A stretch of 64,000 nt of DNA from Amphibalanus amphitrite (Eukaryota; Arthropoda; Thecostraca; Balanomorpha; Balanidae). A program made the position numbers and the translations under genes. The stretch is taken from the NCBI RefSeq assembly GCF_019059575.1, contig NW_024881566.1, forward strand, positions 248,001 to 312,000. The letters run 5' to 3'. The notes beneath the pieces were generated by a model. It was given only the letters and a program-made list of their open reading frames with translations. It was not told the origin of the DNA and ran no database searches. Positions 32,074 through 57,297 of this stretch are shown here, piece by piece (the first letter of the stretch is position 1; each line of letters begins with the position of its first letter).

Positions 32074-33313
32074 TATAGCTTGTTGATGGGTGAATCATGA
32101 ATCACTTATCATACAATATTCAATTACATCCCTGAGGATATGTATATCCTCACCCAACTTATTACGATAAATGAGAAAACTGTATCATACGAGAACAAGA
32201 ATGAAGAATCAAAACAGTGCACATCTGCCAACAACGTCGTCCATTATTCATTGAGCAAAGTAAGGTTCCATGGCGTCCTAGCGCAACAAGCAAGATTTTT
32301 TCCGGTCACATGCATGCTGAAGCAAAACCATAGGTCAAAACAGTAAAAACAGTTCGAAAATGCGTTTGCAACTCACATGTATCGGTTCCCCCAGTCACGC
32401 CCTCCTCCGCCTCCATCGCTGTGTACTTTTAGAAACAACGTAGTGGTGGACAGTTTTACGGCAATAGAGGTGGGTCAGCAAGGATGACGCTATTGAAAAC
32501 TAAACTGCTGCTAAAAAGTTTATGCGGGGCCGTGGAGTTTGAGCACCCCAACAAATTGGCCTTCCATGCGATTTTTAAATGTATTTATTCTCCACGTACT
32601 GGGAAACTCTCAGACACAGGTCACTCAAGGTCAGTTGACCAGGTCATGTGAATGTCAGGTAACCTAAATTAAAAAACGTTTCCACGCTCGTCACAGCTAC
32701 CTACCTACACTGAATGGTTTGAAACTTGGTTGGTTTGAAACTTAGGTACCGCGATGCATGAGAGTGACAGCCGACAGGATATGCAAAACGACAATTTTGA
32801 ATTTTCGATAGGTATCGGTCACCCGAGGTCAGGTCAATTTTGCAATCGCTCGATTATAAGACAATACGAGAAACTCTGAGTGTCTGAGAAAATATGAGAC
32901 TGCGACGAAAGTATTTGGACAAAAGCCATTTTAACCCTCGCCCGCACATGCCATTTTCCCATCCTAGAACGCACATGGGGGGGGTGGTTGCCACCCCCCC
33001 CCCCGCGCCATTTCGTTCCTGTTGGAGATAGAGCTTAGCGGTAAAGACTAAAAAGATTCTTTGGGAAGAGACGAATCCAATGATACCCAGTTTTACCTTC
33101 TCAGGTCAGTCATTGACCTTCCAGGTCAGGTCAAACTAAAAAATGTTGCTATTTTGGGTCACCGTTGGATATCAAGTGCGCTGCTTATCAAATACCGATG
33201 ACGATGCTGTTTTCTGGTGCCAAGCCAGCTAGAACCTCTTTGTCACACTACCCGACCAGAATTTTGCTGCTGAGGTCATTTCAGGTCAAGTTAGGTCAAG
33301 GTCAATTATATGT

Positions 33314-33533: not shown

Positions 33534-36500
33534 TTAGCCAAAGGCCAGCGCGCTGATTTCAATCAGGCGCTGAGGCGCACGCTTAGGTCTACTTGACCTG
33601 CGCAGCGCCGGTGTAGGCGACAGTGACAACGAAGATGGCCGCGCAGGCTCCACCCGACTGCTACTCTCTGCCTCGTTGTCGTCAGTCGTCCGTCCTTCAT
33701 CCAGCGTAGCTGACTCATCAGGATAGACCCGGTCTGAGTCCCGTGTCGTCACCGACCGGTCCGGTTCAGCCGCAGACTCCCTGCGTTCCAGTACCGGAGG
33801 CGGAGACGGTCGGCCCACTGTCTCCTCGTGAGCCTCCTCCCGGCGAGAAGGATCGTGCCGAAGGTGGTTGACGTGGACGAACCGGACTCGACCGTGAACC
33901 CTGCACAGGTACGTATGCGGTCCCTTACGGCACAGGACGATGCCCGGTACCCACGTCACACGCTGGTCGCTGCGACAATTCCGCACGAACACAGGCTGCC
34001 GCGCTGTGAATTCGCGCAGCTTCATGTCCTTTCCATCATGACTTGCTTTCTGTTGCTCCTGCATCTTCTCCACTTGAGCCTTCAAATTGGGCTTGAGTAG
34101 GGACAGACGCGTCCTCGGCGCTCGGCGAAGAAACAGTTCCGCCGGCGTTTTTCCAGTGACTGTGTGTGGCGTGTTTCGGTACGCGAACAGGAAACTGTCC
34201 ACTTGGTGTCGAAGCGTTCTCTTCTCCCCCGACACTTCGTTTTTCAGCAGGTTTTCCTTCAGCGTACGGACGCAACGCTCCACCTGACCATTCGACGCGC
34301 TGTGATATGGCGGCGTCCTCTTGTGCTTCACTCCATTCCTTTTCAGGAAGTCGCTGAACTCCGACGACGTGAACGACGGTCCATTATCAGTGACAACAAC
34401 CTCCGGAACCCCGAAACGTGCGAAGAGGCTGCGGAGTGCTTCGACCGTTCGCGCTGTCTTGATGTCCGCCATCAGGAAGACTTCTAGCCATTTTGAATGA
34501 CCGTCTACTACCAAGAGGAATTGCTGACCTCCTTTCTCAGCAAAATCCAGATGCACTCTTTCCCACACACGTTCTGGCCATTCCCAGGGTATCAGCGGTG
34601 CTGCGGTCGGGTCTTGTCGGACGGCCTGACATGCGCAGCAGCTCTTCACTTCCGCATCGATGTCAGCATCAAGCCCCGGCCACCAGAGGTAGCTTCTCGC
34701 AAGGGCTTTCATACGACCGATACCCGGATGCTCCTGATGCAGGTCCTGGAGAAGCCGCTGTCTGAACTTCGGCGGGATTATCACTCGTCTTCCCCACAGG
34801 AGGCATCCATCTTCTACAGACAGTTCCTCTCTTCTTGTGAAGAACGGCTGGATGTCGTCCGTGATGTCGTCATGCCAGCCCGACATGACGTACTCGCTCA
34901 CCTTACCAAGCGTCAGATCCCGTCTGGTTTCTTCTTTGATTTCTTGTGCTGTCAGCGGGAGCTCCTCGACAACGGAGAACACCGGCTCTTCTTCCATTTG
35001 ATCCGGGTCTTCAATGTTGTCCCTGTTTGTCACCAGCCGAGACAGCGCATCAGCGTTGCCGTGTAGATCCGATCGTCGATATTCGATCTTGTAGCTGTAC
35101 GCCGCCAGCATGAGTGCCCAACGTTGCATTCTTGCCGCGGCGAGGGGCGGCACTGCCGTATGCGGCCCCAGGAGACTGGTCAGCGCCTGGTGATCTGTGA
35201 CCAGGGTGAACAGCCGTCCATACAGGTACTGATGGAACTTCTTTAGTCCGAACATGATACTCAGTCCCTCTCGTTCCACTTGTGCATAGTTGCGTTCGGT
35301 GGGAGTCATAGTCCTTGACGCGAAGGCGATTGGTCGTTCCGATCCGTCGCTCATGACGTGAGATATGACCGCTCCCAGTCCGTATGATGAGGCGTCACAA
35401 CTGAGCTTGATGGGCTTCTCTTCGTCATAGTGCACCAGCACGTCATCTTCACCCAGTGCTGACTTCAGCTGTTGGAACACCTTCTCGCAGGCTGGAGTCC
35501 AGTTCCAGCGTGCCTCTTTCTGCAGCAGCTGGTTCAGCGGCTGCAGCTGCGTCGAGAGGTTTGGCAAAAACCTCCTGTAGAAGTTGATGATGCCCAACAT
35601 GCTCTGCAGCTCCTTGACGTCGTCCGGCCTCTTCATGTTCCTGATGGCCTGGATCTTTTCTTCTGTGGGATGGATTCCATCCGCCGTGATCCTGTGTCCC
35701 AGATAGTCGAGCTCCGTCTTGAACATCTCACACTTTGCACCATTTAGGTGGATGTTGTACTTCTCCAGGCGCTCCATCACTTGGCTGAGGTCTCTGCGGT
35801 GCTCCTCCACTGATGAACTGGCCACCAGAATATCGTCGAGATACACCAGTACCCCATCCAGTCCTTGAAGGGCCTGGTCCATCACCTTCTGGAACAACTC
35901 TGGTGCCTGGGCTACACCATATGGCAGGCGTTGAGGCTGTAGGAGACCTCTCGGTGTGTTGATCACCAGCAGGCGCTTCGATGCTTCTGAGAGCTCACAC
36001 TGCAGGTAAGCCTGAGACAAGTCCAACTTAGAGAACACTTTGCCCTTGATTTTTGCAAAGAGGTCCTGGACCGTGGGCAACGGGTAAGTGCCCACCTCAG
36101 CCCACCGGTTTACGGTGACCTTGTAGTCTCCACATAGCCTGACTGTTCCATCCTGTTTCATCACTGTGACGATGGGTGATGCCCACTCACTGCTGGTGAC
36201 TGGAACCAAGATTCCCTCATTCACCAGCCTGTCCAGCTCCTCAGTGACCTTGGTTCTGAGAGCGTAGGGCACACTGCGGGGCTTGAAGAAGCCTGGTGTT
36301 GCTCCCTCTTTCAGCTTAACCTCTACTTTGAAGGATTTGATGGGCCCCTTACCTTTCAGAAACACTTCTGGGTACTGCTTCTGTATATCACCCTTTTCCA
36401 CCATATTCATGGTGGCAAACGACTTCCAGTCCAGTCTGAAGACCTTGAGCCAGTCTCGACCCATCAGGTTGGGACGTCGGCTGTCCACATCCACCACCAG

Positions 36501-37562
36501 CAGACTCACGGTGTGTTCCTGCTCCTGGTACTTTGCTGTCACAGTCATTTTCCCCACCACAGGGATAGGGGAACCCGCAAAGCCTGTCAGGGTCACATCT
36601 GTGGGCTCCAGGGTGGCCCCTCGGAACACCTCATCAAAGACATGCTTGGTCATGACAGTTTGGGCAGCCCCTGTGTCCACCTGCAAGCTGACAGGTTTGT
36701 CATTCAGCCACATCTTAACTTCATAGGGATTTGCACCCACATCATCCATGCTGTACAGTTCGTACATCCCATTGTTCGGTTTGGATGGTCCTTTTGGTTG
36801 CTTTTTTGGGGTAGCAGACTCGGATGCTCCCTGTTTGGTTCTGCACTTTTTTGCCACATGCCCCTTTAGGTTGCACTTGTAGCACACTGCATTTCGGAAT
36901 TTACATTGTGCTGCCTGGTGTGTGGTACCACCACAGCGATAGCAAGGGCCTGCACTTTGGTTCTCCCTCTTACTCGAATGGGCTTGTCCCCCAGTTCTTA
37001 CCATGTGCACTTCTGGTCCTGGGCCATGCAGATCTCTGGCTTGCTGGGCAGCTGACTCCATCCCCAGGGCGATCTCTCCTGCTCTTGAGAATGACAGCTC
37101 ATTGGGTTCTGCCAGCAACTTCTTTTGGATGGATGGATCCTTTAGCCCACAGACCAGCCTATCTCGTAGTGCCTGATCCAAGAAGTTGCCAAAATCACAG
37201 CTGCTTGACAGCTTTCGCAGTGCCAGCATGAAAGCCGCAATGTCCTCTCCATCACCCTGAGCTCTACTATGGAATCTGAATCTCTCCGCAATTACCAGTG
37301 GTTGCGGGCTCAGGTGCTTCTGCAGCACTGTTATCAACTCATCTAGTGTTTTCTCACTTGGTTTGGAGGGTGACACCAGATCTCTTACAATTCCATAAGT
37401 TTTCGGACCGATCACAGCCAGAAAGGCCTCTTTTTGCAAGTTTTCTTCCACTTTAGCCACTCTGAACGATAGCCGCAGGCGCTCCACATATGTCTCAAAA
37501 CTTTCTTGGGCCTCATTGAAGTGCCTCACTGCAGTTAAAAGAGCTCCTAGGTCTCCTGACAT
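33534..37562 (-). CDS. gag-pol: Gag-Pol polyprotein of the Gypsy element (K02A2.6-like)
   Basis: One frame of 1,342 codons encodes the full replication set of an LTR retrotransposon. The start is the ATG at 37,562: a TTG three codons earlier is open but follows an in-frame TAG. Domains in order are a gag region (residues 1-200), two CX2CX4HX4C zinc knuckles (about 207-240), an aspartic protease with DTGA (about 296), reverse transcriptase with YLDDILVAS, RNase H (SCDASSYGLGA, the VEREG glutamate, TDHQAL), an H2C2 integrase finger starting at HPG and ending SCCACQ, and an integrase DDE core (HLDFAE, VTDNGPSF, SASNGQVER). The C-terminus is Ser/Arg-rich without a chromodomain. No gag/pol frameshift is needed. 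The integrase and RT wording resembles the widespread 'K02A2.6-like' arthropod Gypsy proteins (family-level memory). All catalytic motifs look intact, so the copy may be active. Confidence 0.95.
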   Translation of the reverse strand: MSGDLGALLTAVRHFNEAQESFETYVERLRLSFRVAKVEENLQKEAFLAVIGPKTYGIVRDLVSPSKPSEKTLDELITVLQKHLSPQPLVIAERFRFHSRAQGDGEDIAAFMLALRKLSSSCDFGNFLDQALRDRLVCGLKDPSIQKKLLAEPNELSFSRAGEIALGMESAAQQARDLHGPGPEVHMVRTGGQAHSSKRENQSAGPCYRCGGTTHQAAQCKFRNAVCYKCNLKGHVAKKCRTKQGASESATPKKQPKGPSKPNNGMYELYSMDDVGANPYEVKMWLNDKPVSLQVDTGAAQTVMTKHVFDEVFRGATLEPTDVTLTGFAGSPIPVVGKMTVTAKYQEQEHTVSLLVVDVDSRRPNLMGRDWLKVFRLDWKSFATMNMVEKGDIQKQYPEVFLKGKGPIKSFKVEVKLKEGATPGFFKPRSVPYALRTKVTEELDRLVNEGILVPVTSSEWASPIVTVMKQDGTVRLCGDYKVTVNRWAEVGTYPLPTVQDLFAKIKGKVFSKLDLSQAYLQCELSEASKRLLVINTPRGLLQPQRLPYGVAQAPELFQKVMDQALQGLDGVLVYLDDILVASSSVEEHRRDLSQVMERLEKYNIHLNGAKCEMFKTELDYLGHRITADGIHPTEEKIQAIRNMKRPDDVKELQSMLGIINFYRRFLPNLSTQLQPLNQLLQKEARWNWTPACEKVFQQLKSALGEDDVLVHYDEEKPIKLSCDASSYGLGAVISHVMSDGSERPIAFASRTMTPTERNYAQVEREGLSIMFGLKKFHQYLYGRLFTLVTDHQALTSLLGPHTAVPPLAAARMQRWALMLAAYSYKIEYRRSDLHGNADALSRLVTNRDNIEDPDQMEEEPVFSVVEELPLTAQEIKEETRRDLTLGKVSEYVMSGWHDDITDDIQPFFTRREELSVEDGCLLWGRRVIIPPKFRQRLLQDLHQEHPGIGRMKALARSYLWWPGLDADIDAEVKSCCACQAVRQDPTAAPLIPWEWPERVWERVHLDFAEKGGQQFLLVVDGHSKWLEVFLMADIKTARTVEALRSLFARFGVPEVVVTDNGPSFTSSEFSDFLKRNGVKHKRTPPYHSASNGQVERCVRTLKENLLKNEVSGEKRTLRHQVDSFLFAYRNTPHTVTGKTPAELFLRRAPRTRLSLLKPNLKAQVEKMQEQQKASHDGKDMKLREFTARQPVFVRNCRSDQRVTWVPGIVLCRKGPHTYLCRVHGRVRFVHVNHLRHDPSRREEAHEETVGRPSPPPVLERRESAAEPDRSVTTRDSDRVYPDESATLDEGRTTDDNEAESSSRVEPARPSSLSLSPTPALRRSSRPKRAPQRLIEISALAFG

Positions 37563-37620
37563 CTTTTCCAAATTTGATGTCTACTGCAAATTCACAATTT
37601 ATCTCATTCTTCGTCGCCAG

Positions 37621-38607: not shown

Positions 38608-39567
38608 TTAACCCGCGCCATGCTGGGGGAGACGCTTTCGCGCCCCCCCCCCCCCGCCCCCCCCCCTCAGGTTTTTCACGAATATCTTAAAAAACGGCGG
38701 CGCTGCAGGCCGCTGTTTTTGGCACACCTGTTTATACATCTTTTCCGCACATGTAAAAATTTCAGACCCAGGTCATTCAAGGCCAGGTCATCAGGGACCT
38801 CATAGAAAGTTTCAATAGGTATACCATAGCTACACCGACTGACACGGGTGGAGAATGTTTGAAAAAGTTACCCCGGCCGGCGACCGAAAGTCAGAAAGAC
38901 GATGATGGTCAAATATTTGTCAACGGTTATCAACAAACCCCTATTCTGTGGCATAGAATAATGGATGTCTGCCGTTTGTACGTTTTTAGGGAAAACTGCT
39001 GCACGCAGGTGCGGAAGATTTCGTAATTGTAACTACAATTTTGCAACACTCCTTAAAATTTCGGACGCATGTCACCTAGTGATAGGTCAGGTCATCAGGT
39101 CAAATTTGCTGGATGGTCGTGCTAAAAATGCCATCATGCCCTTTGCAAAGCTTATTCCGTGGAAGTTGCAACCTTCCCATACAAAACAAAATGTCAAATA
39201 TGACCGTTTTGACCCTCTTATTGATTTGAGCTCGCACCTGAAATATTATTCGCGACCGAGCCTTAAACGAGTAATCGAATGTTTTGATTGCAGTGTTTAA
39301 GCTCCGTTATGTTCATGAAGTGTGAGAAAAGTTGTCGGAGAACGCTAAAATCAGAAAAATTTGTCTTTTGATGTTCTATGGTGATTTTATAATTGAGCTT
39401 GCCTAAAACATGACCAGATTTCTCTGATCACGTTTGTCGCTCTTTCAAACGTCGTTCCGCTTCTCGCCTCGTAGCCCAGTAGCCGAGTTAAAAGAAGCGT
39501 GAAAAGCCCACCTCTCGAGTCTCGACTCAACGTGTTACGATAAGGCCATCACCCTGGCGCGGGTTAA
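38608..39567. mobile_element. TTAA-flanked AGGTCA-rich element (CCCGCGCC ends)
   Basis: Starts TTAACCCGCGCC (38,608) and ends GGCGCGGGTTAA (39,567), about 960 bp. The interior matches the 42,017-43,178 element (GGCACACCTGTTTATACATC near the left end; the CGTAGCCCAGTAGCCGAGT-like block near the right). Its right TTAA (39,564-39,567) is also the left TTAA of the next element, so one inserted exactly into the other's target duplication. Confidence 0.75.
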
Positions 39568-40484
39568 CCCTCGCCCGCACATGCCATTTTCCCATCCTAG
39601 AACGCACATGGGGGGGGTGGTTGCCACCCCCCCCCCGCGCCATTTCGTTCCTGTTGGAGATAGAGCTTAGCGGTAAAGACCAAAAAGATTCTTTGGGAAG
39701 AGACGAATCCAATGATACCCAGTTTTACCTTCTCAGGTCAGTCATTGACCTTCCAGGTCAGGTCAAACTAAAAAATGTTGCTGTTTTGGGTCACCGTTGG
39801 ATATCAAGTGCGCTGCTTATCAAATACCGATGACGATGCTGTTTTCTGGTGCCAAGCCAGCTAGAACCTCATTGTCACACTACCCGACCAGAATTTTGCT
39901 GCTGAGGTCATTTCAGGTCAAGTTAGGTCAAGGTCAATTATATGTGTTTGTATGTCTGTGTGTGTCTGTGTGTATACTGATGTGTGCACCGATTGTTTTT
40001 GGGTCCATATTACATGAAATCATGATCTGAGAAGCTTTTACCAAAAATGCAGTCAAAAAACATCACAAAAAGTAAATTCAGCTTGCCTAAAACGCAATTA
40101 TCTTAGATGACCTAGGTTGACCTTGACCCTGACCTTGACCCCTGTACATCGTCGAACAACATGTTCCATGATAGGTGGGAGGTAAGACTGGCAAAAAAGG
40201 CCGAAATCAGGGTGTCAAAAGCTCACAAGGCCCATGGCAGGCGCAAGATGTTGAGAATTGGCCATTTGGGTCATGACATGACCTGAAAAACAAGGTCATA
40301 TCTCCGAAACCAAAAATCACAGAAACTTGAAATTTTCAGTGGACCTCAAGAAAGGATAGAGGAGCAGCTATACGAAAAATCAGCCTTCTAGCTCTAAAAA
40401 TGTTGAGTGCAGAGCAGAAAGACTACCTGGGGGGGGGGGGGGGGTGGCAACCACCCCCCCCCCCCATGTGCGGGCGAGGGTTAA
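39564..40484. mobile_element. TTAA-flanked MITE, copy 2 (empty-site copy)
   Basis: 921 bp between TTAA (39,564) and TTAA (40,484), with the same TTAACCCTCGCCCGCACATG ends as copy 1. It is nearly identical to 32,931-33,313 plus 37,755-38,287 and differs mainly in G/C-run lengths and a few substitutions. It preserves the uninterrupted Gypsy target site: TATGT once, at 39,941-39,945. Confidence 0.85.
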
Positions 40485-45931: not shown

Positions 45932-46362
45932 ATATATTACAAATTCCTTCACTTAAGGTCACATGTTCACGAGCTGAATTCTCTGTTCACTAACAGTTCG
46001 TGAACGTCATGAACAAGTCATCATTTCTGATATCCTTTGCGTTATTTTTCTCATACAGCAAGCAAAAATTCGCGACCATTTTCGCGTTATATTTCAGTGA
46101 TCTTTTCATCACGGCTAAATTCACGCGGCATCAGCTCTCCCCAGTGCAACCGATGGCGTTAAAACCCGAATAGCTTAAGTGTTATTCACATCATCCAGTT
46201 ACATGAGCTTTATCCATGACGGAAGTTCATTTTACTTTTGTAGTGTTGGTTTTATTTCAGACAAACGGTTAGGTAGAGCTCGACGTATCGTACTTTTATT
46301 TCTGTTAATTTACAACGGTCCCATGAAGCAGTCACCCCTTCCAACCACATCGTGGCGTTTTA

Positions 46363-49300
46363 CTACGGTCCACCGCCGCCGGCCGGCGCACAGCGCCAGG
46401 GCTGGAAACTGAAACTGATGGCGAAGTCACTGCGATCGCAGTAGCAGGCGGCGAGGTGTGGCCGGAACGAGGCTCCTGTAGGACACAGCTCGTGGCACAT
46501 CTGACTCTCCGCGTGATAGGTGAAGCCGCGCCGACACGACGGTCGTCCGTCGATGACCTGAGGCTGAGTGGTGACCACCAGGACCCCGCCGCGGCTGCGG
46601 GAGCTCCCTGTGGTGGTGGTTGTTGACGTAGTGGGCGCTGGCGTGGTTGTTGAAGCTGACGCTGGGGGAGGAGTGGTAGTCGAAGGTACTGGCGAAGAAG
46701 TTGTGGTCTTAGGTGCCGTCGGGCTTGTGGTCGTTGGTGCTGGTGAAGAGTTTGTAGGCCAGTGTGGCGTCAGCCTTGTAGTCCAGGCTTTGGTTGTCCA
46801 CCAGCCTGGTTGTGGAGTTGTTTGTTCATCTTGCGTGCCATCCCATTCTGTCCAGACACGAGCTTTGGGTTGAACAGCCGGGAATCCAGGCAGTGGCCCG
46901 GAGCGGTGCGTGGCGTCCAACAGGCTTTTAATATCTGAGGAAGAAGTTAAACACGTTGTTAATAAGCGTACCCGCCTTCAACCACAATGATGTTGACGTT
47001 TACGTTGATCTTGCTATTCATGGGCGATGTAACAACTTACAGCTATCCACTTATATCATCATTTCAGACTTATGCTTTTGAGCTCGATATCGTAAGACGT
47101 TACAATAGCCAGCAAAGCTCATATCAATTATTCTCTCCCTCTATATTTACCTCTTCCAAATTTGTCCAGTTTCCTCCAGATCTCGCGCAGCGTCCTGCTC
47201 TCGCGGACACCTTCTGGTCGCTGCTCATCTGGCACCGACCCGTCATCTCGGCGGTTGGGGTTATTCCCGTTGACGTTTCTGTGCTCATTGTCTTCCAGCT
47301 CGCGATGTTTGTGCTCCCGCTGCCGGTGTTTATGACGTTTGTGTTCCCGTTGTTTCGGTCCATGGTGTTTGTGCTCAACGTGCTTTTGTCCCTTGTTCTT
47401 ATGGTCCTTCTTGTGTCCCATGTGTTTGCCTCCCTTGCGTTTCTGTCCCCTGTGTTTGCTTCCCTTATGTTTCTGTCCCTTATGTTTGCCTTCCTTATGC
47501 TTGCGTCTCTTGTGCTTACGCCCCTTGTGCTTACGCCCCTTATGCTTACGGCCCTTATACTTACGCCCCTTATGCTTACGCCCCTTGTGTTTGTGGCTGT
47601 GCCTTTTGTAGCGCCGGTGTTCTAATGGTGACCGTCTCCGGAACCGGAGTCTACTGAAGGCTTCCTCAAGGTTCTGATCAGAATTGCTGTGCAGCAAGCT
47701 CAACGGGAGCGGAATCAACCCTGCAGAGAAGTAGGAAACAATCAGTCGCATGGAAATTGTTCCTGAATTCAATCTCCTTTTTTTGGAAATGGTGGAATGA
47801 GCCATTTTTACGTTGGGAATAAAGACTGGCTATTATTTGTGTTAGCGAGCAAATAGGCATTTTGGATACCTTCGCAAAGACGGCCGGCGCTCGGAGCGCG
47901 GCGGTCGGTCCGCCGCGCCACGCCGCTCACATATGTGTCATCTGGCCCCTGTCCTGGTTCTCATGCCCACGTGTTGTGCGTACCACGAGGGCTGAGACGG
48001 GACGGGGGCCTGACAGTCTTCGACGGGACTCCACCGGTGCGCGACGGCCCGGTGCACGACGTGGCCGACGTGGCCTTACGTACGACGCGGCCGACGTGGC
48101 CCTACGAGAACGATTCAGTGAACCGCATTTGTGACCGCCGTATTTTGTGCATTTTAATCGTTTCCGTTTCATTCAAGAATAGACTTTTACTTATATGAAC
48201 AATAACTTTATGGTCCTCCGGGTGACGAAAGAGAACGAGTGAACGATCACGAGCACGCACAAAGATTTCCGTATCGAACGAGTGAACTTTACGATTCTCA
48301 CGAACATTCTGGTCCTCCGGGCCGGATATCAGTGAACTAGTGTGATGGATTTACAGTGACGACGCGGTGTTGTGAGCTGTGAGTACAATGTCTGACAAAC
48401 GGTCACGACACGACAGTGATGCAAAATCGCATCAAGGTCGCCGGAGCTCATATCACACGAGGAGTGAGGCGAGCTTCAGTACGGCGTCCTCTGGCCTCAG
48501 TGAAGCCCGCCGCCGAGCTGCGCTCAGCAAGCTCCAGGCGGAACAGGTCCAGCGCGCCGCCGCCGCCAAGGCTGAGCTGGCCCGGCGTCAGGCGGAGGCG
48601 CAGGCGGAGCAAGCCCGACAACAGGCAGAGCAGTCCCGGCGGCAGGCGGAGCAGGCGGAGGCGCAGGCAGCGCTGCAAGCTCAGGCGGCGATGGATGAAG
48701 CTGAATACCGTCAGCTGGAGCTGGAGCTGCTGGAGCAGGAGGAGCGGGGTTCGCAGCACCCTCGTTCTTCCGCTGCACCATCCGTCGCCAGACTACCGGT
48801 GGTTGCAACTGAGCCACCGGCACCGGTGGACGTGTCTCGACAGACGGACGAGTCAGTCACGCGCACCCGACAGTGGCTGGCTCAATCTCAGCTGCATGTG
48901 CCGCCAGTGGATACGGCTCCTGTCGGCACCCTGCCTCCACCTGCAATGCGTCTGCAGCGCCCGTCCAGTGACGACACGCGAGCGGTCCCACATCTGCCGC
49001 GCATCACGCTAGAGAAGTTCGGCGGCTCTGCCATCGAGTGGCCGCGGTGGATAGCCCTCTTCAAAGCGCTGGTGCACGACCGCGCTGATCTCACCGACGT
49101 GGAACGGCTAACCTACCTGCAGACTCACCTGACGGGGCCGGCAAAGGAGTCGGTGCGCGGCATGCTCTGCGACGCCAGTCTATATAGCACTGCCCTGGGT
49201 GAGCTGGAACGAGAGTTTGGTGACCCGTCCCGTGTGATACACGCCACGATGAAAAGACTGATCACAGCGCGGCCAGTGAAAGACGGTGACCTGTCAGCGC

Positions 49301-52300
49301 TCACAGAGCTGTCTCGTGAGCTCCACACCGCGGTGAGCGTCCTACAGTGTCTGTGTTGCAGGCACTTTAGAAAATCAGCCATTTTGTAAAATGCCTAGGC
49401 ATTTTACAAAAAGACGGCTGTTTGAAAAATGACTGAACGCAACCAGGCTTTTTTCAAAATGGCTAGCCATTTTACAAAATGACTAGGCATTTTGCAAAAT
49501 GCCTGACCAGCATGGAACGTAGATCCCACTACAGATACTATGGCCAACAGTTTTTGGACGTCTTCCTATACCCTATATAGGTACGTGTTCAGCCTGTAGC
49601 TGATCGATTTGAAGCTCTGTGATAACGACAATGCTGAGTAACGACCAGGTTGAATTGCAGACTCGGCTGTAGCATAAAGCATTGTTTAGTTAACGCTGTA
49701 AAAACTCCCAAGTACATCAACGCCGTTCATGTCCTGCCTGAAACTAGACCTAACAAAACCAGCCGGAGACCGGCCCTAGTCAATAGGCAGGCCCGGTTGA
49801 TGTACAATTACATGTAAACGAATGAGTGTAGTCTTTGTTTGATTGTGCCATTACGGACAAAACTGTATTATGTATTTGGACATTAAAAACACGTTCGAAT
49901 TTAATTAGGTATAATCTCCCACTCCTTCTCTCTCATCCTCACATTTTAACACGCGCAGTGGAGGGGGGGGGGGGGGCGGATTCCGCCCACCCCTCCTGTT
50001 TTTCGCCAATAACTCGCGCCGCAAGGTTTTCTTTAGGTTTTCTTCCTAACTTTTCTTTGGAATAAAAAAAACTCTCTGATCACAATGAATATTAAAGCAA
50101 TAATCAACAAAACACGATTAATTTTGCTCTGTGGCAACAGCTTTGAGTACCTACTTGCATGGTACCAGTTAAAAATATCAAGCTCCACCTCTGGAGAATC
50201 ATCAGGTCGCTTGGCGTAGGACGAGAGCGTTGGTTTCAGAAGACACTAACGCCTAAGTGTGTGGGATCGAATCCTCGCGACTTCTAATAGTTTTACAGAT
50301 ACAGGCCGGCATAGGGCCAGTCGTTTGTTGACGCTCCAGATCGATCATTTTAAATCCAGCAGCGTCGCTGACGTGGGGGTTGGAAATGTCGCGGGCCTGC
50401 ACTTCTCAAAATAGAGGTAGGTATGGACTTCCCACTGCTGGACTCCTCTGGTCATAATGCTGGACTCCTCGGTCCACCTACACGCTACCAAAACGTATAT
50501 AATTAGGTACTCGTATCTACAACACACTGCTCAGTCATTTTGTAAAATGGCTAGGTATTTTGTAAAGTGCCTAGGCATTTTGCAAAATGACTGGAGAGTC
50601 AGTCATTTTGTAAAATGCCTAGGCTTTTTGCAAAAAGCCTGGAAAATCAGTCATTTTGCAAAATGCCTAGGCATTTTACAAAATGACTGATTTTCTAAAG
50701 TGCCTGCAACATCTGCACTACGAGCACGACCTCGCTGCCGCCACGAACGTCACCACTGTGACTGGGAAGCTACCAGCCTCCCTCGCCTGGAGGTGGGGCG
50801 AGCACATGGTGGAAAACGGCATCACTCGTCCGACGCTCGTCGATCTCGACGAATGGCTTCGCCGGCATGTGTCAGCTGGTCGGTTGGCCTTGAACGTGAC
50901 CACCAAGCAGCTGCCGAAGGTCGAGGCTAATGACGCTGAGTACCGCCCGAGACGCGTGTTTACCACCGCGTCGGCGCGGCCCACGCCGGCGGCTGTAAAG
51001 CGGGAGAGGACAGCTGCCATAAAGTCATCAGCGGACGGACACAGTGACTGGTGTACCATGTGTCAGCAAACACACGAGCTCCAGCACTGTGACGAATTTC
51101 TCGCGCTGACTGTGAGTGAGAAGGCAGAGTTCGTCGGCAGAAACGGACTGTGCTTTAACTGCCTGGGTCGCGATCACATCAGCGCCACGTGTCCCAGTGA
51201 TGCACGATGTGACGCGGAGCACTGCGGCAGGCGTCATCACACGCTGTTACACAATGGAGGACGAGTGTTTCCGCTGCGCGATTCCGATGATGGTACGCCG
51301 TCATCTGCCAAACATGTCGGCACCGCATCGGCCGAGCCTCGCAGTGATGTTCTCCTGCAGGTGGTGCCCATCACCGTAAATGGGCCGGCAGGTAGCCGCA
51401 CCACGAACGCACTCTTCGACCTGGGCAGTCAGGTCACACTGATCACCGACGACCTGTGTGACCGGCTCGGCATCTCGGGGCCCACCGACAAATTGGTGCT
51501 GAGTACGCTGAGTGGGACCCAAACGACGACGTCACGACGCGTATCCTTCGCCGTCGAGGCTGTGGGCGGCGACGGCAGGGCACACCGTATACGTAACGCC
51601 CAAACGACGCCGACGTTAAACGTGTCAGTCAAGGCCATGGTCTGCACAGTAGCAAAGGAGAAATGGCCGCACCTTGCCGACCTGGATCTCCCCAGCGCCA
51701 CCCACGGCCCAGTGGAGGTGCTCCTGGGAACCGACGTCATCGAACTTATTGTGCCGCGGGAAGTGATCGAGGGACCGACGGGAACGCCGTGCGCCGTAAG
51801 AACGCTGTTGGGATGGACGGTGACCGGGCGGGCGTCGGAACGCTCGGTGCTCGATGGTGAACACGTTGTCAATCACGTTCGTGTCAGTGATAAAACGAGT
51901 GGTGCAGTCGCTGACCTTCACACCCAGGAATCATCAGAGACGACCCAGTGGTGTCACGCAGCCGAGCCGCCGGGCCCGGCCGACATCTTCAGCAGAGGCG
52001 GCCCGGGGACGGACCTCGCCCCCGGCGGACCGTGGATACGAGGTCCAGCTGCGCGGTCCGGCCCGGCCGCCCTCTCCGACGACGAGACGAGGGTCACAGC
52101 GTGCGTCACCGAGCGAGCGGAGCCGGTCGTAAACGGCAGTGACTTCTCGTCCTGCCTCATGGACTCCGGCGGCCTGCTCAGAGTCGGTGGCCGTCGCTGG
52201 AAGCGGAAGAACACGCAGCCGCAGGATCGCCCCTGGCGACGCCGGCGGCGAGAGTGTCTCCCCGCGCAAGCCGACCGCACACTGCATGTCGATCATGGAC

Positions 52301-54589
52301 ACGACCGAGGTCAAGGTTGGCGAACTAGTGCGACTGACCGACGGAGACGTACCGCGTGGGACACCGGCCGATGGGACGAGCGGAGTGTATGACGCCGGTG
52401 TAGGTGGTCGTATCCGCGCCGTGGATGCGACGACTGCCACTGGTCGTTACAGGCGGCCAGTCTCTCGTCTCTGCCGTCTCGAGTGCGACGGCGACGAACA
52501 GTAAACGGACTCGGAGAGATAATGTGCGGCACGGGGGACGGCTAAAGTGAGTCGTCTACGACCGCACTGTGCCGCCGGCGAGCAGTGTGGAGATCGGAGC
52601 GTTTATTAGTGTTTCCTGCGCCCACCATTCGCGATGCCAACGTGTGTGTGTGTGCGTGTGAGAGTGAGCCGCTCATTCTGTCCGCTGCGAATGGTCATTT
52701 GTGTTGAGTGCAGCCATTAGCTGTCAGCTGTGAGCCGTTTGACAGTTCTTGAACGCGCTAGTAGTTTACGACCTTAGAGTGTAACATAGCAGTGTTAGAT
52801 TAGTTTATGATACGCACCGTGTTAGCGCTATTGTACGTCCGCGTTTGTTCCCTTCGCCGCTTCGGTAACGTAATGTGATGTGTGTTGAACGTTGTGCGAT
52901 GGGCGTTAGTGTGTCGACAATGTGACGTCACTGTCACTGCCGCCAGTGCCTCTCGAGCGAGTGTTCGTAGTTAACGACATGCGTCAGTGCGTGACAGTGA
53001 CCGGCGGCCGGGACCGCGCCGTCGTATAGTTTTACGACTGGGCGCGGGATTGTTGTCAGGAATGACCTCCGCCCCGGCCAGACTCTGTGTAGTGCGTAAT
53101 GCGTATTGTATGTGAGTGTATGCATATTGCGCACGGTGTACGGATCGTTACGAGTGTGTGCGTGCGTACGAGACGCTTGAACGATTGCTCGCTAGTGGTT
53201 GGATTTTCCGCGGATGATCGCGAAAAACCGGGCCGGCTATGTTAGCGAGCAAATAGGCATTTTGGATACCTTCGCAAAGACGGCCGGCGCTCGGAGCGCG
53301 GCGGTCGGTCCGCCGCGCCACGCCGCTCACATATGTGTCATCTGGCCCCTGTCCTGGTTCTCATGCCCACGTGTTGTGCGTACCACGAGGGCTGAGACGG
53401 GACGGGGGCCTGACAGTCTTCGACGGGACTCCACCGGTGCGCGACGGCCCGGTGCACGACGTGGCCGACGTGGCCTTACGTACGACGCGGCCGACGTGGC
53501 CCTACGAGAACGATTCAGTGAACCGCATTTGTGACCGCCGTATTTTGTGCATTTTAATCGTTTCCGTTTCATTCAAGAATAGACTTTTACTTATATGAAC
53601 AATAACTTTATGGTCCTCCGGGTGACGAAAGAGAACGAGTGAACGATCACGAGCACGCACAAAGATTTCCGTATCGAACGAGTGAACTTTACGATTCTCA
53701 CGAACAATTTGCATTTTTTTAAGCCGAGGCGATTGTCCATTCCCAAGAATAGTTTTAACGATTTTTTCCAATTGAAATGGTACAGCCCACCGCTAAAGTA
53801 ATGTAGGGTTTTACCAATCTCAACGGTTGGCTTTGACTGGCGATTGTTTAATGCGGAGTGATCGAAAAGAAGATGTCAATAGCTAAAGTAGCAGCTGCAA
53901 GGGTGACGATACATATAAGCTACATTCAAAGTTTCATTGTAGTCTGGCTAATCGTTCCTAAGCTTCAGAAGCAGAACATACCCATGACTGAAACCCCACA
54001 TTACTTCTGCTGTGGACTGTACCTACCTACACGGTCTAATTGAACTTCTAAGTCCTACCAGAGATGGTATATTCTTTGCACCTTACCTTTCTTTCCCAGA
54101 TTCACTTTGTAGAAACTTCGAACCTGTTGGTTTCTGTCATTTTCCGAGGAGCCCTCATGGACGCAGTGCTCGGCTCCAGAGCTCGGCTGGGATGACGGGA
54201 TCAGTTCATTCTGAGCTGATCTCAAACGCAGTGGATCAGCTGAAAAACATAGCACAACTTTGGTCAAATGCAAAGTCAAACAGATGCTCTTACGGGTTAA
54301 CGTTCTGAGATTTCCTTCATTACGCGAGGAAGTAAAAACTGTTTTGGCATGACAACATGAACAATGAGAAGGCTGATCACTCAGAATGGGCATTTTGAAC
54401 TGAGAGCTGACAAAGTTGTGGCCAGGTCCTAACCGATTGCCAAGTTACTCGCAGTTTGCTGTAAAACTAAGCGAGCCGCCAGTTTTTCTCTGTTTCCATA
54501 TCACCAAGATATCCCTCATTTCCCCACAGCTCACCTTTGACGTTGACGAACGCCGACACCGCAGTTAGGATGGCCACTATACGGGTCAT
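46363..54589 (-). CDS. Secreted KHKG-repeat / mucin-like / six-Cys protein, three exons
   Basis: My reconstruction joins 54589-54535, 47720-47151 and 46934-46363 (55 + 570 + 572 = 1,197 nt; 398 residues; stop TAG). Exon 1 encodes signal peptide MTRIVAILTAVSAFVNVK and ends AAAG|GTGAGC. Exon 2 follows the pyrimidine-rich acceptor TTTCCTACTTCTCTGCAG and ends GAG|GTAAAT. Exon 3 follows ACTTCTTCCTCAG. Both junctions keep phase. Residues about 41-58 carry furin-like basic sites (RFRRR, RRYKR). Residues 60-150 are pentapeptide-like KHKGR repeats, and 160-205 are charged. About 245-320 is a Thr/Pro/Ser linker suited to O-glycosylation. The last 57 residues hold six cysteines spaced C-x12-C-x3-C-x12-C-x-C-x15-C. 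I recognise no family. A cationic, His-rich extracellular protein could bind metal, chitin or polyanions, or be antimicrobial (inference). Intron 1 contains the BEL element, antisense. AATAAA lies at about 46,295-46,300 on this strand. Confidence 0.65.
47840..48306 (+). repeat. 5' LTR of the BEL/Pao element
   Basis: 467 bp, TG...CA ends, identical to 53,240-53,706. A GACGTGGCC motif is repeated near the middle (about 48,058-48,100). The frames across it are not genes. Confidence 0.95.
48388..49353 (+). pseudogene. gag: BEL/Pao gag, 5' part (interrupted)
   Basis: The frame starts at ATG 48,388 (an upstream GTG is open but less likely). It opens with a Ser/Arg-rich stretch, then a long Ala/Gln/Glu coiled coil (about residues 45-120) and a DUF1759-type gag core starting LPRITLEKFGGSAIEWPRW and running through LTYLQTHLTGPAKESV. 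The frame is broken at 49,353 by a transposon. Reading into the insert stops at 49,387-49,389. Sequence matching the rest of the domain resumes at 50,712, in phase once the insert and one duplication copy are ignored. Confidence 0.85.
49354..50711. mobile_element. Non-autonomous DNA transposon with Ginger-like ends inside BEL gag
   Basis: Terminal inverted repeats of about 58 bp start TGTTGCAGGCACTTTAGAAA and include a TTTTGTAAAATGCCTAGGC-type palindrome. The 4-bp duplication TCTG flanks it (49,350-49,353; 50,712-50,715). Subterminal blocks repeat CATTTTACAAAATG palindromes (to 49,510 and from 50,530). The central part has a G14/C hairpin (about 49,962-49,995) and a tRNA-Leu-like relic. Termini of the form TGTNR with a 4-bp target match what I recall of Ginger elements; no transposase is present, so the class is an inference. 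Confidence 0.75.
50206..50281 (+). tRNA. tRNA-Leu-like relic (probable SINE head or pseudogene)
   Basis: A-box-like TGGCGTAGGACG, then GAGCGTTGGTTTCAGA resembling the tRNA-Leu(CAG/CAA) anticodon arm, and a B-box-like GGATCGAATCC. The ends GTCGC and GCGAC can pair as a partial acceptor stem. The anticodon stem does not close properly and the variable arm is irregular, so a functional tRNA is unlikely. Confidence 0.35.
50712..52504 (+). pseudogene. pol: BEL/Pao gag 3' part, protease and pol remnants
   Basis: The main frame (to 52,392) resumes gag, then a CTMCQQTHELQHC cysteine/histidine knuckle region with CFNCLGRDHISATC, and a DUF1758-type aspartic protease whose active site reads FDLGSQVTLI; family members usually have D-S/T-G, so DLG is unusual. 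At about 51,945 the protease linker joins directly to WCHAAEPPGPADIFSRG, normally downstream of RNase H, so RT and most of RNase H are deleted. GLLRVGGR follows, and then another deletion removes the integrase. The C-terminal DUF5641-like part (VKVGELVRLTDGDVPRG to RLCRLE) is in a different frame, ending at the TAA at 52,502-52,504. The element cannot encode its own replication enzymes. Confidence 0.85.
52505..53239 (+). other. BEL/Pao 3' untranslated region
   Basis: Non-coding part between the pol remnant and the 3' LTR. A TGTGTGTGTGCGTGTGAGAGTG stretch (22 bp; near 52,645) and scattered GTGT words are present. No strong polypurine tract is visible directly before 53,240, only GCGAAAAACCGGGCCGGC. 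Confidence 0.6.
53240..53706 (+). repeat. 3' LTR of the BEL/Pao element
   Basis: 467 bp, no difference from the 5' LTR found on line-by-line comparison, followed by ATTTG (53,707-53,711). Confidence 0.95.
53712..54532 (-). other. Remainder of intron 1 of the KHKG-repeat gene
   Basis: AT-richer sequence between the BEL insertion and the exon 1 donor (GT at 54,533-54,534). No other exon is convincing. Removing the BEL copy and one duplication would leave an intron of about 0.94 kb. Confidence 0.5.
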
Positions 54590-54796: not shown

Positions 54797-54804
54797 ATTA
54801 TATA
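54797..54804 (-). promoter_or_regulatory. TATA box of the KHKG-repeat gene
   Basis: On the minus strand TATATAAT lies in a CG-rich context about 208 bp upstream of the exon 1 ATG, putting transcription start near 54,770 and giving a 5' leader of about 180 nt. Nothing else on this strand between here and the ATG looks like a promoter. Confidence 0.5.
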
Positions 54805-56841: not shown

Positions 56842-57297
56842 TTAGTGATATCCGCCGTAGCCTCCGCCGTAGCCGCCGCCGTAGCCTCCCTTGTGTCCTC
56901 CGCCGTAGCCGCCGCCGTAGCCTCCCTTGTGCCCCCCGCCGTAGCCGCCGCCGTAGCCTCCCTTGTGCCCTCCGCCGTAGCCGCCGTATCCTCCCTTGTG
57001 TCCTCCGCCGTAGCCGCCGTAGCCTCCCTTGTGTCCTCCGCCGTAGCCGCCGCCGTAGCCTCCCTTGTGTCCTCCGCCGTAGCCGCCGTAGCCTCCCTTG
57101 TGTCCTCCGCCGTAGCCGCCGCCGTAGCCTCCCTTGTGTCCTCCGCCGTAGCCGCCGCCGTAGCCTCCCTTGTGTCCTCCGCCGTAGCCGCCGTAGCCGC
57201 CCTTGTGCCCTCCGCCGTAGCTGCCGTAGCCTCCCGGGCTGGCCAGAGCGAGTGCGCAGAGCGCGGAGAGCACCATCAGAGCCGACAGGACCTTCAT
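56842..57297 (-). CDS. Secreted glycine-rich HKGGYGG repeat protein
   Basis: 151 residues. I start at ATG 57,297, not at the longer open frame, because it gives signal peptide MKVLSALMVLSALCALALA followed by SPGGYG and lies about 58 bp downstream of a TATA box. The mature part is ten units of GGGHKGGYGGY (11 residues) or GGGHKGGYGGGY (12), ending GGYGGYH and TAA at 56,842. No cysteine and no acidic residue, so it is basic and His/Tyr-rich. Gly-Tyr repeats of this kind occur in arthropod cuticle and other extracellular matrix proteins and in glycine-rich antimicrobial peptides (family knowledge); the sequence cannot separate these. It shows no visible intron. The unit-length variation (33 vs 36 bp) points to slippage or unequal exchange. 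It lies 2.3 kb upstream of the KHKG gene on the same strand. Confidence 0.85.
   Translation of the reverse strand: MKVLSALMVLSALCALALASPGGYGSYGGGHKGGYGGYGGGHKGGYGGGYGGGHKGGYGGGYGGGHKGGYGGYGGGHKGGYGGGYGGGHKGGYGGYGGGHKGGYGGYGGGHKGGYGGGYGGGHKGGYGGGYGGGHKGGYGGGYGGGYGGYH

Follow-up and report, generated by a model that had tools for sequence, protein, structure and literature searches.

Secreted, Cys-containing proteins have been described from barnacles, among them PpRcys1 of Pollicipes and the crustin AaCrus1 of Amphibalanus amphitrite. In the parts of the two papers available here, PpRcys1 is given 12 Cys per 104 residues (PMC12195476) and AaCrus1 an 8-Cys WAP domain (PMC8877177), and the Cys pattern of the gene described below is unlike either. 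A whole-genome duplication has also been proposed for barnacles, according to a partial text of PMC11331182. The literature that we searched on histidine-rich and lysine-rich crustacean secreted proteins and on shell matrix yielded nothing relevant, and four strings of the protein encoded by the present gene did not occur in the literature searched.

Here we describe a gene in a 64,000-nucleotide stretch of A. amphitrite DNA (the window; contig C69, 248001-312000), together with a second copy, the C3 paralogue. The gene model is a four-exon one on the minus strand at 54589-46363; the paralogue supports it, and we consider it very probably right. We tentatively read the product, somewhat short of an even chance, as a modular secreted protein, 449 residues long, that binds surfaces through its cationic parts, of a defence or a cuticle/cement type. 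The surface or defence role, taken for itself, is put forward a little more hesitantly still.

Exon structure and the intronic retrotransposon

The features of the gene and its surroundings, in the direction of transcription, are as follows.

54799 to 54804, minus strand: TATA box (TATATA), found by pattern search 215 bases upstream of the ATG
54535 to 54589, minus strand: exon 1, 55 bases, with the predicted signal peptide MTRIVAILTAVSAFVNVK and the first base of the following codon; donor GTGAGC
54087 to 54239, minus strand: exon 2, 153 bases, phase 1/1, open, encoding ADPLRLRSAQ...VNLGKK; without a counterpart in the preliminary description
47840 to 53706, plus strand: LTR retrotransposon of BEL/Pao type, 5867 bases, sited between exons 2 and 3 and antisense to the gene
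47151 to 47720, minus strand: exon 3, 570 bases, H/K/R-rich with a KHKGR array; stops within the helix
46363 to 46934, minus strand: exon 4, 572 bases, with the remainder of the helix (46934-46912), the linker, the six-Cys end and the stop
46295 to 46300, minus strand: AATAAA, a likely polyadenylation signal; a second one lies at 46256

A preliminary description of this locus had proposed three minus-strand exons (54589-54535, 47720-47151 and 46934-46363). All of these borders hold: they are canonical, their phases agree, and the total of 1197 bases (398 residues and a stop) is a multiple of three. What that model left out is the 153-base exon at 54239-54087, with which the complete model has four exons and encodes 449 residues instead of 398.

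Exon 2 is found downstream of exon 1 and ahead of the retrotransposon; its borders are TTTTTCAG/GTAAGG, with TGCTATGTTTTTCAG before it and GTAAGG behind. Under a rule asking for a pyrimidine-rich [CT]AG acceptor, a GTRAG donor, a length of at least 100 bases that is a multiple of three, and an open phase-1 frame, it is the sole candidate that the 828 bases from exon 1 to the retrotransposon contain, and at least one candidate passed the same rule in 104 of 5000 Markov-simulated sequences. By the rule alone, an exon arising by chance would have a modest probability; the paralogue decides for a real one. We accepted exon 2 because the C3 paralogue has a matching exon with the same phases and borders, 28 of 52 residues being identical (E 5e-12 in a 12.3-kb search, E 2.7e-6 genome-wide). 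With E up to 1 allowed, a search of the genome with this exon found two places only, the window and C3. Exon 1 of the C3 paralogue is MTRQVILLAAVSAFVSAT, identical in length (55) and phase to that of the window, and the sequence TATATAATCGACAG around the TATA box, with its flanks, can be aligned with the same place in the paralogue.

With exon 2 present, the expected junctions are 54535/54239, 54087/47720 and 47151/46934, and the 54535/47720 junction of the preliminary description would be an exon-skipping form. The three-exon model was rejected as the main form, a fourth exon being retained in the C3 paralogue. Once exon 2 is included, signal cleavage is likely to fall between VKA and DP by the -3/-1 rule. 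Secretion of the encoded protein is predicted with high confidence.

Transcripts could instead start so that ATG 47751, intronic and a short way ahead of exon 3, is used, giving a shorter protein (or an extra isoform) that begins MRLIVSYFSAGLIPLPL and has a hydrophobic start of its own. An ATG and an open frame through the exon-3 acceptor are found in both copies, MRLIVSYFSAGLIPLPL in the window against MRLMVVYFVAELIPLPS in C3 (MRLIVSYFSAG and MRLMVVYFVAE). However, a normal 3' splice site, with a pyrimidine tract and CAG, coincides with this stretch and is sufficient for its conservation, and the paralogue has kept exons 1 and 2 as well as the TATA region. We regard a start at this ATG as very improbable.

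The statement that exon 1 lies beyond a 5.9-kb retrotransposon was borne out when the element was measured. Its LTRs (47840-48306 and 53240-53706) are 467 bases each, have TG...CA ends and are flanked by a 5-base target duplication, ATTTG, at 47835-47839 and 53707-53711. The frame on the gag side matches DUF1759 (E 1.5e-17), which we take to place the element in BEL/Pao, and a second frame matches an aspartyl protease (1.1e-5). The insertion is read as recent because the two LTRs are identical, and alignments of the window with C3 did not find the element in the corresponding C3 intron. The element carries no information on the protein.

Other repeats were seen in the window. Inside the BEL/Pao-type element, at 49354-50711, two 69-base inverted repeat arms separated by 1220 bases and accompanied by palindromic CATTTTGTAAAATG repeats look like a nested DNA element. 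On the minus strand, a stop-free, Gypsy-like retrotransposon frame of 1345 residues occupies 33534-37571. A 383-base direct repeat (32931-33313 and 39564-39945, 99% alike) may represent the LTRs of this frame or of a surrounding element.

The C3 paralogue and constraint

Genome searches covered 807,550,619 bases in 2644 contigs. The primers published for A. amphitrite cysteine protease 1 (PMC2713238) both match this genome exactly: the forward primer does so once, against no match for its reversed control, and the reverse primer is correctly oriented to give the published product of 91 bases, so that the assembly belongs to A. amphitrite or a very near relative. A search with exon 4 returned the window itself and one strong match, in C3 (E 1.2e-52, 70% over the aligned part). 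Seven further exon-4 matches were weak (E 0.1-0.65) and either fall in the low-complexity linker range or are broken by stops; these and one weak match from another search (E 0.06-0.65 overall), one of the eight having been inspected, were set aside as low-complexity or chance. The window gene and the C3 paralogue would thus make up a two-gene family in this assembly; the second gene, like the helix described below, had been overlooked in the preliminary description. The paralogue is placed as follows.

C3, 747179 to 754100: paralogue with four exons at 747179-747233, 749548-749697, 753007-753267 and 753445-754100

Its phases, AG acceptors and GT donors are all as in the window gene. The two copies share the signal peptide, the N-terminal exon, an R-x-x-R site (REKR in C3, RESR in the window copy) followed by a helix, and, towards the C-terminus, the Thr/Pro/Ser linker together with the six-Cys end. 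They differ in that the paralogue lacks the KHKGR array, its exon 3 having 261 bases as against 570 in the window gene, and in that its exon 4 starts with a Gly/Pro/Trp-rich insert that is absent from the window copy. The extra (seventh) Cys encoded by window exon 2 is absent from the paralogue.

The possibility that the two are alleles was rejected, both on dS (0.49) and because all seven alignments of the gene loci, in a comparison of the 64-kb window with 32 kb of C3, lie within 55776-46093. The only other alignment between them covers 105 bases near 4 kb of the window.

Over 325 aligned codons of the whole gene, dN is 0.248 and dS 0.492, giving a dN/dS of 0.50 (bootstrap 95% interval 0.36-0.68), and none of 1000 bootstrap replicates reached 1 or more. 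The gene as a whole is under constraint, although exon 2 taken alone does not show such constraint (dN/dS 0.80, interval 0.39-1.89; 322 of 1000 replicates reached 1 or more). For the end of exon 3 the ratio is 0.33 (bootstrap 0.13-0.77); point estimates, taken without bootstrap, put the helix region at 0.23, the linker at 0.55 and the six-Cys end at 0.48.

These values bear on whether the window gene could be a decaying duplicate that lost its expression after the retrotransposon entered the intron. The insertion is recent, with identical LTRs, and lengthened the intron by 5.9 kb, and a fragment of the C3 gene found elsewhere is an instance of decay within this family. However, the four exons are open, the splice borders are intact, dN/dS over the whole gene is below 1, and the element is antisense and inside an intron, so that decay seems highly unlikely to us. 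The fragment itself (C289 3059-3272; loci L014, L018 and L028) is 214 bases long and matches the C3 gene at 92% identity, from the end of exon 3 into the intron behind it. No further piece of the gene was found in C289 1-21000, and we take it as a stray fragment.

Array, helix and linker as candidate functional parts

Between exon 2 and the six-Cys end the window protein contains the following parts.

47635 to 47646, minus strand: RFRR, convertase-like site, window copy only
47602 to 47613, minus strand: RYKR, convertase-like site directly ahead of the array, window copy only
47413 to 47592, minus strand: KHKGR-type array, 12 units of 15 bases, missing from C3
47194 to 47205, minus strand: RESR, before the helix; the C3 paralogue has REKR here
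47151 to 47193, minus strand: first part of the amphipathic helix TLREIWRKLDKFGRDIKSLLDA, hydrophobic moment 0.757
46573 to 46866, minus strand: Thr/Pro/Ser linker, 58% T+S+P over 98 residues

The signal peptide, the KHKGR repeats and the Thr/Pro/Ser linker of the preliminary description can all be seen in the translated exons. The order of modules is a signal peptide, a short acidic-to-neutral N-terminal exon, an H/K/R-rich stretch, an R-x-x-R or R-x-K-R site, a basic, strongly amphipathic helix that spans the exon 3/4 junction, the linker and the six-Cys domain.

The array region has 46 K+R and 23 H per 101 residues. Lys at position 1 is invariant across the 12 units and its codon is variable; pN among the units is 0.165 against a pS of 0.79 that is inflated at two-fold sites. 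The array therefore looks as if it is read as protein. Because the C3 paralogue is entirely without it, we do not consider it the core of the family, and the emphasis given earlier to these repeats is not supported.

The helix TLREIWRKLDKFGRDIKSLLDA has a hydrophobic moment reached by 1 of 20000 shuffles and its C3 counterpart TLHKIWRGLDKFGRGIKNMLLP one reached by 6 of 20000, both helices having been picked by eye first and the counts carrying no correction for that choice. In both copies the 18-residue stretch with the highest moment of the whole protein falls at this helix. Its net charge is small (+2 to +4). Ahead of it, the C3 paralogue has an R-x-[KR]-R site, REKR, whereas RESR in the window copy is a minimal site.

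From these features we propose that the polybasic part and the helix, once secreted, would bind anionic surfaces such as bacterial envelopes, anionic glycans or mineral. The linker would be O-glycosylated and extended, and the Cys domain would serve as a compact, stable anchor or recognition module. A furin-type convertase cutting ahead of the helix may release parts of the chain, and the protein is perhaps a processed precursor. We rank a cationic surface-binding protein as the likeliest reading, with a peptide precursor and a structural or adhesive protein as near rivals.

In the first of these rivals the gene encodes a host-defence peptide precursor: furin-type cleavage at RESR or REKR would release the helix (TLREIWRKLDKFGRDIKSLL in the window, TLHKIWRGLDKFGRGIKNML in C3), the H/K array, specific to one copy, would act as a second weapon, a polycationic one, and the Cys domain would add a third module. 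An amphipathic helix behind R-x-x-R or R-x-K-R in both copies, the low dN/dS of the helix region, and R-F-R-R and R-Y-K-R ahead of the array are all consistent with this. However, the cecropin model PF00272 finds neither gene, the five weak frames that it picks out in the genome are not cecropin-like, the helix peptide is without a Pfam or NCBIfam match, and the RESR of the window copy is no more than the minimal site. Long Thr/Pro/Ser linkers are, moreover, unusual for host-defence peptide precursors, which counts against the precursor reading. On balance we think it doubtful. A more elaborate version, in which a barnacle-specific, multi-weapon host-defence polyprotein was assembled in cirripedes from a convertase-released cecropin-like helix, a newly grown KHKGR array gained by one copy and an undescribed six-Cys fold, is a good deal less probable again.

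The other rival is a structural or adhesive extracellular protein of the cuticle, shell-plate lining or cement, from which no peptide is released, with the Lys/His array serving ionic and oxidative cross-linking alongside a glycosylated linker and a disulfide domain. Composition speaks for it, the array region being rich in K, R and H and the linker in T, S and P, as does a neighbour encoded on that strand 2.3 kb further upstream, a second predicted secreted protein, with GHKGG repeat units. Barnacle cement proteins are composition-biased and often repetitive and duplicated, in the portion of PMC8561864 available. On the other side stand the absence of the array from the C3 paralogue and the composition clusters given in part of PMC8371367, which are Leu-, Gly- and Cys-rich, with none Lys/His-rich. 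A structural or adhesive role is, in our estimate, as unlikely as the peptide precursor.

The upstream gene, at 56842-57295 on the minus strand, is an intact one-exon frame of 151 residues (MKVLSALMVLSALCALALAS-PGGYGSYGGGHKGG...) with a signal-like start, a TATAAA upstream and about ten GGYGGGHKGG-type repeats. It has no Pfam match and is predicted to be a second secreted repeat protein.

If confirmed, these genes would form a small secreted-protein family, with two copies in the genome of a major fouling organism and no match to a family in the libraries searched. The two copies offer a natural comparison, one conserved frame occurring with a polybasic array and without it. The helix and the Cys domain, present in both, would be the parts of interest for antimicrobial or surface activity, and priorities are corrected accordingly, the eye-catching repeats being the dispensable part.

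The six-Cys domain and comparison with known systems

The C-terminal domain is the remaining feature.

46390 to 46536, minus strand: six-Cys domain, measured from its first Cys to its last; the paralogue has the same residue at 38 of 47 aligned positions

The Cys spacing given in the preliminary description (x12, x3, x12, x1, x15) was confirmed for the window copy, and the last spacing is x13 in C3. The six-Cys ends of the two copies are identical at 153 of 174 bases, including an identical run of 51. Nonsynonymous changes are fewer here than in the rest of the gene (Fisher p 0.00025). Gene conversion was considered because synonymous changes are also reduced (p 0.019), and it is possible that constraint and some conversion have both contributed to the identity.

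A genome search with the domain alone (E up to 10) found the two genes only. The profile search of the C-terminal piece that had been suggested was run with Pfam for both copies at E up to 10 and gave no family; names that came up elsewhere in the Pfam searches, mucin among them, were at chance level, and the window peptides have no match in NCBIfam. Searches of PDB sequences with the C-terminus, the helix, a two-sequence profile and the C3 protein gave none or chance-level matches, the profile finding nothing beyond E 1.7. The earlier remark that no family is known to have this order of domains is in line with the libraries, in which no credible match was found (NCBIfam for the window peptides only). 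Among the sequences of a viral collection searched for relatives there were five pattern matches, none of them confirmed. AlphaFold2, run on the last 66 residues as a single sequence, gave a model with a mean pLDDT of 49, which is too poor to use.

Three known six-Cys classes were tried and rejected. For CBM14 (peritrophin-A) the six-Cys spacing does not agree and there is no Pfam CBM14 match. For CS-alpha-beta defensins neither the six-Cys order nor the gamma-core G-x-C is present, and Pfam gives no match. EGF-like domains share a C-x-C joining the fourth and fifth of six Cys, but the PROSITE EGF_1 and EGF_2 signatures are absent from both copies and no Pfam EGF model matches.

Membership of the cecropins was likewise rejected, there being no PF00272 match at either locus. 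With hmmscan the helix peptides of both copies matched 0 families, PF00272 included, in a search whose HMMER filters can drop very weak matches. Across the genome the model gave five weak matches, none over the cut-off and none at either gene; translated, their frames are unlike cecropin genes and look like chance. The present proteins differ from cecropins further in that the PS00268 pattern is absent and in that the helix lies within a long protein. What they have in common with cecropins, judged by eye, is an aromatic residue, the order K/R-L/I-D/E-K-x-G-R/Q-x-I-R/K and a later Gly-Pro, and the cationic, amphipathic helix expected at a cecropin N-terminus is found here in moment and charge. 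With CS-alpha-beta peptides they share half of the pattern, a C-x3-C followed 12 residues on by a C-x-C. With PpRcys1 and AaCrus1, as far as the available parts of those papers go (PMC12195476, PMC8877177), they share a barnacle origin, predicted secretion and the possession of Cys.
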